A stretch of DNA of 64,000 nt, from the NCBI RefSeq assembly GCF_019443325.1, contig NZ_CP080383.1, positions 3,844,001-3,908,000 of the forward strand, read 5' to 3'. This document shows, in pieces, positions 60,824 to 64,000 of this stretch. The notes under the pieces are model-generated. The model worked only from the letters and a program-made list of their open reading frames with translations, was not told where the DNA came from and did not search any database. Source of the stretch: Cryobacterium sp. PAMC25264. GTDB lineage: Bacteria > Actinomycetota > Actinomycetes > Actinomycetales > Microbacteriaceae. The position numbers were made by a program, and so were the translations under genes. Position 1 is the first letter of the stretch; each line of letters begins with the position of its first letter.

Positions 60824-61474
60824 GGCGGCGAGCATGGACTCCATGAGGTTGATCTCGGACTCCTGGGAGACGATGACCGAGTTGGAGAAGCCGAGGATCG
60901 ACGGGTTGTTGGCGCGGTCCTGCACGGCCTCGGCCATGTCGACGGCGCCCCTGTGGTGCGCGATCATCAGGGTGAGGAACATCCGCTCGGCGTTCGCACC
61001 TGTGGACGCGGTGAGGGCGGCGATCTGGTCGTCGGTGGCCAGTCCGGGCATCCGCTGCCCAGGGGTGTGCGCCCCGCCGGTGTGGCCGTGGCCTGAGTCG
61101 GAGCGGCCGGGTCGGGTCATCCAGGTCATCGACGGCTCGGGGCCGGCCTGGGTGAGGTTCCACTCGGTGAGCCAGCCGTAGAGCTGGCCGGCCTGCTGGG
61201 ACTGGGTGAGGGCGATGTCGTAGGCGAGCCGGCGCACCTCCTCGTCGGCGGTGCGGTCACGGATGATCATGGCCAGCTCGGCCCCCTGCAGGTGGTGCAC
61301 CTGCATATCGCGGGCGAATCCGGCCTCGGCACTCGTCGCGGTGGGAGCGGGGCTGTCGATCGCGCTCAAACGGCCCACGGAGTAGCCGACCAGCGCGACC
61401 ATCGCGACCGCGATCGCGGCGGCGATGATCAGGGTGACGCGCCTGGCGCCGACGCTACGCCTTGCCGGGGCCAT
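60812..61474 (-). CDS. DUF305 domain protein (membrane-anchored)
   Basis: 220 residues with one N-terminal transmembrane helix (VTLIIAAAIAVAMVALVGYSVG). The extracellular DUF305 domain has the two His-rich motifs FARDMQVHHLQGAELAM and LTLMIAHHRGAVDMAEAV. The family resembles ferritin-like four-helix proteins and is often linked to copper or other metals; activity is unproven. The start overlaps the end of the DUF3105 gene by 20 bases, so they are one operon. The last residues AREL and the stop lie in the palindromic repeat. Confidence 0.88.
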   Translation of the reverse strand: MAPARRSVGARRVTLIIAAAIAVAMVALVGYSVGRLSAIDSPAPTATSAEAGFARDMQVHHLQGAELAMIIRDRTADEEVRRLAYDIALTQSQQAGQLYGWLTEWNLTQAGPEPSMTWMTRPGRSDSGHGHTGGAHTPGQRMPGLATDDQIAALTASTGANAERMFLTLMIAHHRGAVDMAEAVQDRANNPSILGFSNSVIVSQESEINLMESMLAAREL

Positions 61475-62177
61475 CGATACCGCCGGTGCACGGGGAACCG
61501 GGCTCCGGAACCGAGGTGCTCTGCCAGTACTCCTGGATGAAGGTCGGGATGCGCTCGTCGTCGACCGAGTCGACCGCCAGCTGTGTGTTCCAGCCGCTGA
61601 GCACGATGGGGGAGTCGAGTCCCTCGAACGGCGACAGGATCACATAGGTGGAGGGCAGCAGGCCGCGCAGCGTGGCCAGGTCGTCGTCGCTGAGCGAGGA
61701 GTCGTAGGTGATCCACAGAGCCCCGTGCTCCTGGGAGTGCACGGCGTTCTCCGACGGAACCTGCTCGGTGTACACGCCGCAGTTCAGCCAGGCCGGGTTG
61801 TGTTCGCCGCCGGCGGGCGGGGTCTGCGGGTAGGTCACGGCGGTCTGCACGTGGGCGGCCGTGTTCTGGAACGTCTGCACGCCCTCGATCTCGGCGCCCG
61901 TGCCACCGCCGGCGGTGTAGCTGGCGCTCTTGGGGGTGAGGACCACGGACGTGATGACCAGGCCCACCACGGCGACCACGGCCGTGATGCCCGCGATCAG
62001 GCCGATGCGCCGGTTGCGAGCAGTGCGCTTCTGCTCGCGGTGGTACTGCTCGAGCTTGGCGGACCGTTGCGCCGCGCGCTGAGCCTTGACGCCGGGCTTG
62101 GGGGTGGATGATCCGGCTGAGGAGCCGTTGGGCGGGGCAGGGGTCACGAGGGCCTCTTTCGGTTGCTGTTCTCTCAT
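61455..62177 (-). CDS. DUF3105 domain protein (membrane-anchored)
   Basis: 240 residues from ATG 62177. A basic cytoplasmic segment (KAQRAAQRSAKLEQYHREQKRTARNRR) and one transmembrane helix (IGLIAGITAVVAVVGLVITSVVL) come first. The extracellular DUF3105 domain includes HVQTAVTYPQTPPAGGEHNPAWLNCGVYTEQVPSENAVHSQEHGALWITYD, with conserved His and Cys residues. DUF3105 and DUF305 genes commonly pair in actinobacteria. Function unknown, perhaps metal handling at the surface. Confidence 0.85.
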   Translation of the reverse strand: MREQQPKEALVTPAPPNGSSAGSSTPKPGVKAQRAAQRSAKLEQYHREQKRTARNRRIGLIAGITAVVAVVGLVITSVVLTPKSASYTAGGGTGAEIEGVQTFQNTAAHVQTAVTYPQTPPAGGEHNPAWLNCGVYTEQVPSENAVHSQEHGALWITYDSSLSDDDLATLRGLLPSTYVILSPFEGLDSPIVLSGWNTQLAVDSVDDERIPTFIQEYWQSTSVPEPGSPCTGGIDGPGKA

Positions 62178-62263
62178 TCGAACGTATGGACCGCCGCCCG
62201 CGCTTCCCGAGTAGGGCATCTCACAGTTGGTTCACAGTCTGGTCGGGACTCCCGGGCGGCGAC

Positions 62264-62278
62264 TAGAGTGAAACCGTG
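62264..62278 (+). promoter_or_regulatory. Predicted leaderless promoter of the cysteine leader peptide
   Basis: The -10 box TAGAGT at 62264-62269 is followed by GAAACC and the GTG start codon of the leader ORF at 62276. Transcription would begin at the start codon. No clear -35 box. Confidence 0.6.
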
Positions 62279-62317
62279 ATCATCCTGACGTCGTGTCCCT
62301 GTTGCTGCTTTCGCTAG
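62276..62317 (+). CDS. Poly-cysteine leader peptide (putative cysteine attenuator)
   Basis: GTG ATC ATC CTG ACG TCG then TGT CCC TGT TGC TGC TTT CGC TAG encodes the 13-residue peptide MIILTSCPCCCFR. Four of 13 codons are Cys, three consecutive. It is positioned to be leaderless and lies 102 bp upstream of cystathionine beta-synthase. Leaderless poly-Cys ORFs that act as cysteine-responsive attenuators upstream of sulfur genes are known in mycobacteria. By analogy, ribosomes would stall on the Cys codons when Cys-tRNA is scarce and so raise expression of the transsulfuration genes. The role here is inferred from position and sequence. Confidence 0.75.
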   Translation: MIILTSCPCCCFR

Positions 62318-62419
62318 CCGACTCGCACACCCGTATTCACCGGTTTCAGACCGCCACCAGGCCAGCGGCCACGCCGGCATCGCTCCGCGCCACGTCACTC
62401 ACGTTCGAAGGATCCCTTC

Positions 62420-63784
62420 ATGAAAATCGCTGACACCATCCTCGACCTCATCGGCAACACGCCCCTGGTCAAGCTGCACAAGGTCACGACGGGCATCTCC
62501 GCCACCGTGCTCGTCAAACTCGAATACCTGAACCCCGGCGGGTCTGCGAAGGACCGCATCGCCACCCGCATCATCGACGCCGCCGAGCGTGACGGGCACC
62601 TGTTGCCCGGTGGCACCATCGTGGAGCCCACCTCCGGTAACACCGGGGTCGGCCTGGCCCTGGTGGCTCAGCAGCGCGGGTACAAGTGCATCTTCGTGCT
62701 GCCCGACAAGGTGGGCGAGGACAAGCGCAATGTGCTCACCGCGTACGGCGCCGAGATCGTCGTGACCCCGACATCCGTGGCGCCGGACGACCCGGAGTCC
62801 TACTACAGCGTCTCCGACCGGCTCGCCCGCGAGACCCCGGGCGCCTTCAAGCCCAACCAGTACTCCAACCCGAACGGTCCGCTCAGCCACTACGAGTCCA
62901 CCGGACCCGAGATCTGGCGCGACACCGACGGTACCGTCACCCACTTCGTTGCCGGCGTGGGCACCGGTGGCACCATCACCGGCACCGGACGGTACCTTCG
63001 TGAGGTGTCGGACGACACCGTGCGCATCATCGGCGCCGACCCGGAGGGCTCGGTGTACTCCGGCGGCAGCGGCCGGCCCTACCTGGTCGAAGGTGTTGGC
63101 GAGGACTTCTGGCCGGGCGCATACGACCCGGCCGTTCCGCACGAGATCATCGCGGTCTCGGATGCCGACTCCTTCGCGATGACCCGCCGGCTCGCCCTCG
63201 AAGAGGGCATCCTGGTCGGTGGCTCCAGCGGCATGGCCGTCGTCGCGGCGCTCCGCGCGGCGAAGGACCTCCCCGCCGATGCCGTTGTGGTCGTGCTGCT
63301 GCCCGACGGCGGCCGCGGCTACCTGGGCAAGATCTTCAACGACGGCTGGATGCGCAGCTACGGCTTCTCCAACGCTCCCGCCGGTCACACCGTGGCCGAC
63401 CTGCTGCGCTCGAAGACCGGCACCCTGCCGGCGTTCGTGTACGTGCACCCGAACGACACCGTGCGCGACGCGATCGAGACCATGACCTCCTCGAGTGTGT
63501 CCCAGGTGCTTGTCCTCGCGGCCAAGCCGCCTGTCGTGATGGGCGAGGTCGTCGGCTCCGTCGACGAACGCAGCCTGATGGCCCGGGTCTTCTCCGGGGA
63601 GTCGCAGCTCACCGACAAGGTGGGCTCGATCGTGGGTGACGCCTTGCCGTTGATCGGTGTGAACGAACCGGTGGGGTCGGCCCGGGCCGCGTTCGCCGAA
63701 CACGACGCCCTCCTCGTCACCGACGGCGGCAAGCCGCTCGGTGTCATCACCCGGCACGACCTCCTGACCTACCTCAGCGTCTAG
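62420..63784 (+). CDS. cbs: Cystathionine beta-synthase
   Basis: 454 residues. The N-terminal PLP domain has IGNTPLVKL, the PLP-binding Lys in LNPGGSAKDRIA, the PLP phosphate loop PTSGNTGVGLAL and GVGTGGTITGTGRYL. The C-terminal tandem CBS domains (about 335-454) include VHPNDTVRDAIETMTSSSVSQVLVLA and LVTDGGKPLGVITRHDLLTYL. It joins serine (or an activated serine) with homocysteine to make cystathionine. The CBS pair separates it from plain cysteine synthase. A GAAGGATC site precedes ATG 62420. It is probably co-transcribed with the following gamma-synthase gene. Confidence 0.92.
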   Translation: MKIADTILDLIGNTPLVKLHKVTTGISATVLVKLEYLNPGGSAKDRIATRIIDAAERDGHLLPGGTIVEPTSGNTGVGLALVAQQRGYKCIFVLPDKVGEDKRNVLTAYGAEIVVTPTSVAPDDPESYYSVSDRLARETPGAFKPNQYSNPNGPLSHYESTGPEIWRDTDGTVTHFVAGVGTGGTITGTGRYLREVSDDTVRIIGADPEGSVYSGGSGRPYLVEGVGEDFWPGAYDPAVPHEIIAVSDADSFAMTRRLALEEGILVGGSSGMAVVAALRAAKDLPADAVVVVLLPDGGRGYLGKIFNDGWMRSYGFSNAPAGHTVADLLRSKTGTLPAFVYVHPNDTVRDAIETMTSSSVSQVLVLAAKPPVVMGEVVGSVDERSLMARVFSGESQLTDKVGSIVGDALPLIGVNEPVGSARAAFAEHDALLVTDGGKPLGVITRHDLLTYLSV

Positions 63785-63849: not shown

Positions 63850-64000
63850 ATGAGCCACTCCGTGAACCAGAAGTTCAGCACCATCGCCATCCACGCCGGC
63901 CAGGAATTCGACCCCACCACCGGAGCCGTCATCCCGCCGATCTACCAGACCTCCACCTACGTGCAGGACGGCATCGGGGGCCTCCGCGGCGGCTACGAGT
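63850..64000 (+). CDS. metB: Cystathionine gamma-synthase/lyase, N-terminal part (partial)
   Basis: The first 50 residues only, running off the window. FSTIAIHAGQEFDPTTGAVIPPIYQTSTYVQDGIGGLRGGYE is the characteristic start of Cys/Met metabolism PLP enzymes of the MetB type. The pairing with cbs is typical of actinobacteria. Synthase and lyase cannot be told apart from this segment. An AAAGAGACC site precedes ATG 63850. Confidence 0.85.
   Translation, partial: MSHSVNQKFSTIAIHAGQEFDPTTGAVIPPIYQTSTYVQDGIGGLRGGYE

Follow-up and report, generated by a model that had tools for sequence, protein, structure and literature searches.

A putatively leaderless, cysteine-codon-rich short ORF as a probable cysteine-responsive attenuator upstream of cystathionine beta-synthase in Cryobacterium

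The window, that is the whole stretch of 64,000 nucleotides of Cryobacterium sp. PAMC25264 that was analysed (contig NZ_CP080383.1, positions 3,844,001 to 3,908,000; the source genome is labelled G000 in the comparisons), closes with a gene for cystathionine beta-synthase (cbs) and the first part of metB. Directly upstream of cbs lies a very short upstream ORF (uORF) with clustered cysteine codons. The features of the locus, in positions of the window, are the following.

62240-62245, + strand: weak candidate -35 element TGGTCG, 18 nt 5' of the -10 box
62264-62269, + strand: -10 box TAGAGT, read from the sequence; a TANNNT box is found before the uORFs of relatives too
62276-62317, + strand: putatively leaderless Cys-rich uORF of 13 codons, MIILTSCPCCCFR, with GTG start at 62276-62278 and stop TAG at 62315-62317, supported by relatives with a drifting N-terminus
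62294-62308, + strand: candidate sensor codons TGT-CCC-TGT-TGC-TGC (Cys7, Cys9, Cys10 and Cys11)
62316-62322, + strand: AGCCGAC, spanning the stop and bases 3' of it, kept in many Cryobacterium leaders, as judged by eye from alignments
62318-62419, + strand: leader between uORF and cbs, 102 nt, C-rich and G-poor (45 C and 23 G by base count)
62407-62412, + strand: Shine-Dalgarno-like (SD-like) GAAGGA of cbs, read from the sequence
62420-63784, + strand: cbs, the gene for cystathionine beta-synthase and presumed target of the regulation, ATG at 62420, identified by profile match
63850-64000, continuing past the window end, + strand: metB, cystathionine gamma-synthase family, presumably the second gene of an operon with cbs, ATG at 63850, identified by profile match, the whole gene being read in locus L001

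A preliminary description of this DNA had proposed the 13-codon ORF, its GTG seven nucleotides after TAGAGT, and cbs followed by metB 102 nt downstream. The ORF is as described to the base, with Cys codons at 62294, 62300, 62303 and 62306; the GTG begins at the seventh base after the box, with six bases between the two; and both genes score above their NCBIfam cut-offs, the cbs product against TIGR01137 (cystathionine beta-synthase, 589.8 bits for a cut-off of 510.25) and the metB product against NF005871 (cystathionine gamma-synthase, 645.6 for a cut-off of 513). Enzymes of the cystathionine beta-synthase and gamma-synthase type catalyse steps between homocysteine and cysteine. Among the best 80 of 563 named relatives the nearest cbs genes, at 93-94% identity, are from Cryobacterium (L041 and L004). 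Upstream of the uORF a DUF3105 gene (61458-62174) runs divergently on the - strand, and between this gene and the uORF promoter TCACAG/TTCACAG blocks at 62213-62240 are kept in 12 aligned near genomes. The Rfam 15 covariance models gave no matches up to E 1 within 62000-62600.

On both strands of the window, the uORF is the sole ORF of up to 40 codons starting with RTG that holds CC or CxC and has a TANNNT box 5-8 nt before its start. Regardless of a box, seven ORFs of up to 20 codons hold CC, the uORF included. The comparison was extended to a set of cbs loci made up of the best 80 of 563 named records and, out of 111 Microbacteriaceae genomes matching cbs strongly, of the 90 with the best matches, which after merging of 11 duplicates gave 159 unique loci. 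Under a strict rule (TANNNT, 5-8 nt, ATG or GTG, up to 40 codons, two adjacent Cys, at most 350 nt upstream of cbs) a uORF is present at 38 of the 159, counting a match in G141 that uses another ATG and a doubtful one at L034 (gap 247 nt). The reverse strand gave one hit in 159 and dinucleotide shuffles two in 4,770. Allowing CxC raises the count to 41 of 159 loci and 24 of the 90 genomes, spread over 14 genera, and there are also occurrences outside the Microbacteriaceae in Promicromonospora and Occultella records. Across both strands of the 80 named cbs loci (568,538 bases), all 17 boxed CC ORFs of up to 20 codons directly precede cbs on the same strand. Between uORF and cbs lie 60-166 nt in all but one of 69 leaders, the exception having 247 nt. 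These controls rule out a chance origin of the boxed Cys uORF upstream of cbs.

Within single genera the uORF is common and has also been lost. In the window's genus cbs was found at the cut-off in 56 of 57 genomes; 39 of these 56 carry a uORF under the rule with CxC included (G141 among them on another ATG) and 17 do not. In a second genus, centred on G142 and taken as Agromyces-like because, of the named loci, those of Agromyces come closest to G142, cbs is present in 59 of 60 genomes and the uORF in 55 of the 59, the losses being two genomes without a leader and two with single-Cys copies. In the alignments the uORF start codon, or the leader as a whole, is seen to have been lost from several Cryobacterium genomes, and in G178 the leader is present with more widely spaced Cys. 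On a FastTree tree of 106 cbs rows the uORF trait requires 12 changes, six of them forced by well supported branches. Shuffled labels require 27.6 changes, and none of 500 shuffles was as low as 12. The distribution of the trait is thus clustered on the cbs tree, with several gains or losses. On the same tree a record named Sporosarcina beigongshangi groups with Arthrobacter and Cryobacterium sp. BB307 stands far from other Cryobacterium (L053 and L076), placings that may reflect wrong names or contigs, or a moved gene.

The position of the uORF relative to its box is conserved too. Of 109 distinct CC uORFs scored with the most 5' start, 86 have a TANNNT box at a distance of 6 or 7 nt (67 at 6 nt and 19 at 7 nt), and 16 of the 22 printed exceptions have an extra in-frame start upstream of a boxed one. 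This conserved spacing, which bears out across relatives the leaderless geometry first proposed for the window, is that of leaderless mRNAs and would place the start of transcription at the uORF start codon. No classical TTGACA/TATAAT promoter was called at the uORF promoter site. By eye, CTGGTC or TCTGGTG occurs at about -35 distance in alignments of several Cryobacterium groups, and column information in the -35 region of 86 promoters is at most 0.30 bits. That the uORF might be a chance ORF next to an ordinary leadered cbs promoter is extremely improbable: such a reading would fit the relatives that lack the uORF or carry decayed copies, but it is opposed by the reverse-strand and shuffle controls, by the uniform placement before cbs, by the box spacing and by the small number of changes on the tree.

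The promoter comparison also separates two architectures of cbs itself. A -10 box placed for leaderless cbs, TANNNT 5-9 nt before the start codon, is found for 83 of 118 uORF-less cbs genes (for example L048 and L022) and for none of the 41 that carry a uORF. It follows that cbs is mostly either leaderless itself or SD-led behind a leaderless Cys uORF. In the window's genus an SD motif lies upstream of all 39 uORF-bearing cbs genes, and the 17 uORF-less cbs genes of that genus have the SD and no leaderless-type box.

The peptides encoded by the uORFs vary widely around a constant cysteine cluster. The 90 distinct uORF sequences, which were chosen by CC or CxC, start with GTG in 81 cases and ATG in nine, and encode 80 different peptides of 8-20 residues with two to five Cys, the last of which lies 0-6 residues from the peptide end. 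Among relatives the uORF length and the N-terminus drift, and the Cys cluster and the leaderless geometry remain constant. The preliminary description had looked to conserved Cys codons with variable flanks across the Microbacteriaceae, and this is what the comparison found, both in these peptides and in the occurrence at the 159 cbs loci and in the two genera. Given that 80 differing peptides share a Cys cluster by the stop, selection appears to act on the codons rather than on the peptide. The codons themselves are biased: 69 uORFs use TGT 168 times and TGC 52 times, as against 3 TGT and 48 TGC in the fetched portion of the cbs genes at the same loci. The ratio of TGT to TGC in uORFs is 80:40 in the window's genus, 88:12 outside it and 122:9 in the second genus. 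The preference for TGT may reflect slower reading or a need for base-pairing. Cys-rich peptides can bind metals, and a small peptide that is itself active, for instance in metal or redox binding, would be a reason for such an ORF; this is very improbable, however, given the diversity of the peptides in both sequence and length, the position in cis before cbs of every boxed CC uORF in the 80 named loci, and a TGT bias that works on codons.

A wider uORF regulon was considered and rejected. A sequence model of this leader type (R1; 42 of 68 unique leaders went into it) matches the source genome at cbs alone (E 2.4e-7, the next match having E 0.18), and 18 weaker places in that genome have no boxed Cys uORF. 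In 57 genomes of the genus, 39 places with E < 1e-3 are all directly upstream of cbs by coordinate comparison, and ten weaker places that were cut out have no boxed Cys uORF. A search of 394 genomes of the class gave matches of E 0.003 or better in 15. It led to 13 further loci being extracted, of which four, all Agromyces-like, have a boxed CC uORF and nine have none. In the source genome and, below E 1e-3, in the genus the matches are restricted to cbs, as read with a model insensitive enough for the class search to miss the uORF-bearing G142 and G259, so that leaders of a different build could exist. Six weak R1 matches of equal score in contig C1 of G171 (for example 275171-275211) suggest a repeated, perhaps mobile, element.

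A connection with sulfate assimilation was likewise not borne out. The PAPS reductase family PF01507 (CysH/CysD) has no match in the source genome, in a search whose control gave matches in 14 of 14 genomes, and sulfur is probably taken up there in another form. The family is present in 39 of 57 genomes of the genus and 25 of 150 of the family. A tie between the uORF and the loss of sulfate assimilation was rejected: because the uORF occurs in 29 of 39 genomes with PF01507 and in 10 of the 17 other cbs genomes, it does not follow the loss of PF01507. Nor was a boxed CxC uORF found at any of 20 PF01507 sulfate-assimilation loci (10 kb each, both strands), in a scan that SD-led or otherwise built leaders would escape. 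In the family sample, therefore, the module stands at cbs and not at sulfate assimilation.

Polycysteine leaderless short-ORF attenuators have reportedly been studied experimentally in M. smegmatis by Canestrari in 2020. Cysteine-dependent translation attenuation is described for mycobacterial cysteine genes in the available parts of PMC9031893 and PMC13236596, the design is also cited in the accessible text of PMC9094748, and the available text of PMC4633059 names cysA2, Rv0485 and nirA as neighbours of the mycobacterial poly-Cys ORFs; PMC8079986, as far as its text is available, is a further background source on known systems. As portrayed in these portions, the mycobacterial attenuators have a leaderless start, as the present uORF putatively does, and share with it clustered Cys codons in a short ORF and an adjacent gene of cysteine metabolism; they differ in standing before cysA2, Rv0485 and nirA, whereas here the gene is cbs, the bearers belong to the Micrococcales, and masking of the ribosome-binding site (RBS) finds no support in the window's clade. 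A closer precedent as to the target is the prediction by Seliverstov et al. in 2005 of Cys-run leaders at cys operons of Mycobacterium and Propionibacterium acnes and at cbs of Bifidobacterium longum. According to the available text of that paper (PMC1262725), there were no conserved hairpins or terminator, Rho was suggested for the Cys leaders, and the prediction was called rather weak by its own authors. Those leaders have in common with the present ones a short ORF, a Cys run by the stop, one position upstream of cbs and no conserved terminator. The difference is that they comprise a single cbs case and that leaderless geometry goes unmentioned in the accessible portion of PMC1262725, against 90 uORF sequences, many genera and an alternative leaderless cbs here. 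Leifsonia xyli was within that genome set and is unnamed among the leader bearers in the same portion.

Two further systems bear a partial likeness. In the LEU element of actinobacterial leuA, as set out in the available part of PMC1262725, a run of sensor codons is proposed to pair with the SD box, much like the Cys:RBS stem of Agromyces; it differs in its leucine codons and its pseudoknot, and the same text cites evidence against classical attenuation there. The element uORFC-8-2 before cysS in the Rhodobacterales has two tandem Cys codons and is a candidate ribosome-mediated attenuator, and differs in its terminator stem with a U-run, in its occurrence in alphaproteobacteria and in its cysS target, all as given in the accessible text of PMC8632094. 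The novelty over mycobacteria put forward in the preliminary description, a cbs target in a different family, is smaller than asserted, Bifidobacterium longum having been predicted in 2005 to carry a poly-Cys leader upstream of its cbs (PMC1262725, available text). No paper on such leaders before cbs of Microbacteriaceae was among the matches listed in a literature search whose coverage excludes most subscription papers. New here are the breadth within the Microbacteriaceae, the absence at the 20 sulfate-assimilation loci and the compensatory RBS-masking stem in one genus.

It is suggested that the uORF is, in all likelihood, a cis-acting, ribosome-sensed, cysteine-responsive attenuator of cbs, a reading that draws on sequence comparison and on analogy with the mycobacterial genes; the leader is real and conserved, and its function in cysteine sensing is very probable on the same comparative grounds. 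Directly established are the ORF with its geometry and conservation, the bias of its codons and, in one genus, the compensatory stem. In the proposed mechanism, whose transcription start, uORF translation, cysteine response and output step are deductions, the mRNA would begin at, or one base from, the GTG of the uORF, and a ribosome would therefore read the Cys-rich 13-mer first. When Cys-tRNA is scarce the ribosome would pause on the Cys codons, and the resulting change in the leader would allow cbs, together with metB, to be expressed; when cysteine is abundant it would pass through and the downstream gene would be held low. In the Agromyces-like relatives, the pairing released would be that of the Cys codons and the preceding codon with the cbs RBS.

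The output step was approached by folding, most or all sets omitting G141, G200, where just 2 nt separate the box from the ATG, and L034, whose gap is 247 nt. When the Cys codons are masked as by a stalled ribosome, 37 leaders from outside the genus gain in predicted accessibility of the cbs RBS (0.403 before and 0.573 after), against a change of +0.008 in the shuffled-leader control (p 3e-9). In 31 leaders of the window's genus the same masking has a small effect, from 0.482 to 0.529 (p 0.013), and for the window's own leader the unmasked and masked values are 0.32 and 0.32, or 0.33 and 0.37 in another folding run. Shuffling the uORF alone retains 0.152 of an accessibility gain of 0.204 (Wilcoxon p 0.0024), so that base composition, with a U/G-rich uORF and an A/C-rich RBS, accounts for much of the gain. 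Duplex energies outside the genus (38 leaders) are lower between the Cys core and its own cbs RBS than between the Cys core and the RBSs of uORF-less cbs genes (-12.6 versus -10.4 kcal/mol, p 0.002), and in 19 of 23 cases the energy is also lower with the cbs RBS than with the metB RBS of the same genome (p 0.004). In the window's genus the corresponding energies are -11.04 versus -10.98 (p 0.55). A permutation test on duplex energy gave 69 of 10,000 permutations as low; a uORF swap test on 36 leaders was not significant, with 3,007 of 20,000 permutations as high, and swaps among five clades produced no consistent change.

Compensatory changes are seen in the Agromyces-like genus. Among its leaders with an ending other than LCCR, the codon just ahead of the first Cys covaries with the bases after ACA in the RBS, the combinations being CTG/CGG, TTG/CGG, CCG/CGG, CGG/CCG and GCC/GGC. 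This codon and the RBS are fully paired in 13 of 17 such leaders, as against 6.6 on permutation with none of 5,000 permutations as good; 13 further Agromyces-like rows without ACA in the RBS were unscored, and three of the four misses (G213, G238 and G204) carry ACACAGC, in which the second ACA is the one used by the rule. Applied to 15 LCCR-type leaders and to 18 others, the same rule yields no signal. When hand-made groups were folded as alignments, covarying pairs numbered 7 of 26 in six Agromyces leaders and 3 of 39 in five others; three groups from Cryobacterium had 1 of 31, 0 of 32 and 0 of 49. An RBS-masking stem is therefore supported by these models outside the window's genus, with compensatory changes in one Agromyces-like genus. 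RBS sequestration as a universal output is rejected, being unsupported in the window's clade by duplex energies, swaps, masking folds and alignment folds alike.

A general stop-codon hairpin, GUCGUCGC-UGA-GCGACGAC, was rejected, since z falls below -1 in just 13 of the 37 leaders from outside the genus, whose mean is -0.69, and in 6 of the 31 from inside it, whose mean is -0.28; it is clear in a few, with z of -2.1 in G093, -3.3 in G011 and -2.9 in G026. Pairing of AGCCGAC with GUUGCU of the Cys codons has a segment z near 0 (0.2 in G000, genus mean -0.28) and no support beyond conservation. No intrinsic terminator with a U-run was called within 62318-62419, the sole terminator-like site in 62100-62500 being at 62147-62161, 5' of the uORF. 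The fold that the preliminary description envisaged for 62318-62419 was thus not recovered, and the window's leader has no clear sequestering or terminator hairpin.

This raises the possibility, rather an unlikely one, of Rho-dependent transcription attenuation with the same sensor, a scheme that overlaps with the preferred one: a stalled ribosome would block Rho, and with plentiful cysteine Rho would terminate transcription before cbs. C exceeds G in all 69 leaders and in all 55 of the second genus (sets that overlap in part), and the leaders have an excess of C over G of 15.3 per 100 nt, compared with 1.1 for the 100 nt that precede uORF-less cbs genes. Such C-rich, G-poor leaders would suit Rho, as would the absence of a terminator-like site from the window's leader, the unsupported RBS masking in its clade and the proposal of Rho for cys and cbs leaders in the available text of PMC1262725. 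However, a C-rich leader fits an unstructured spacer equally well, and the evidence here is no stronger than the 2005 prediction. Against Rho stand also the compensatory RBS pairing in the Agromyces-like genus and the unmasking of the SD, which is the translation attenuation described for mycobacterial cysteine genes in the accessible part of PMC13236596.

With the uORF taken as a ribosome-sensed attenuator of cbs, a broader picture can be put forward tentatively, and as a whole it is more doubtful than the attenuator itself: the Microbacteriaceae would carry a cysteine sensor of mycobacterial type at cbs rather than at sulfate assimilation, cbs would have switched repeatedly between a bare leaderless mRNA and a uORF followed by an SD-led cbs, and the output in Cryobacterium would differ, not being RBS masking and perhaps being Rho, so that one sensor module would have several outputs in the family. 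The attenuator would extend ribosome-sensed cysteine control from mycobacteria to the Microbacteriaceae and would mark cbs as a controlled step, in a genome where no gene of the PAPS reductase family was found. The uORF would also exemplify tiny leaderless genes, which are prone to be missed. The tens of natural variants and losses could serve for studying the coupling between a Cys-codon sensor and its output. In L203, L207 and L194 (genomes G186, G182 and G177) the -10 box and Cys-like codons are kept and the uORF start is gone, making these natural loss variants, and L216, L222 and L223 (G174, G181 and G194) retain AGCCGAC despite having lost the stop codon at that point, their uORF continuing beyond it.
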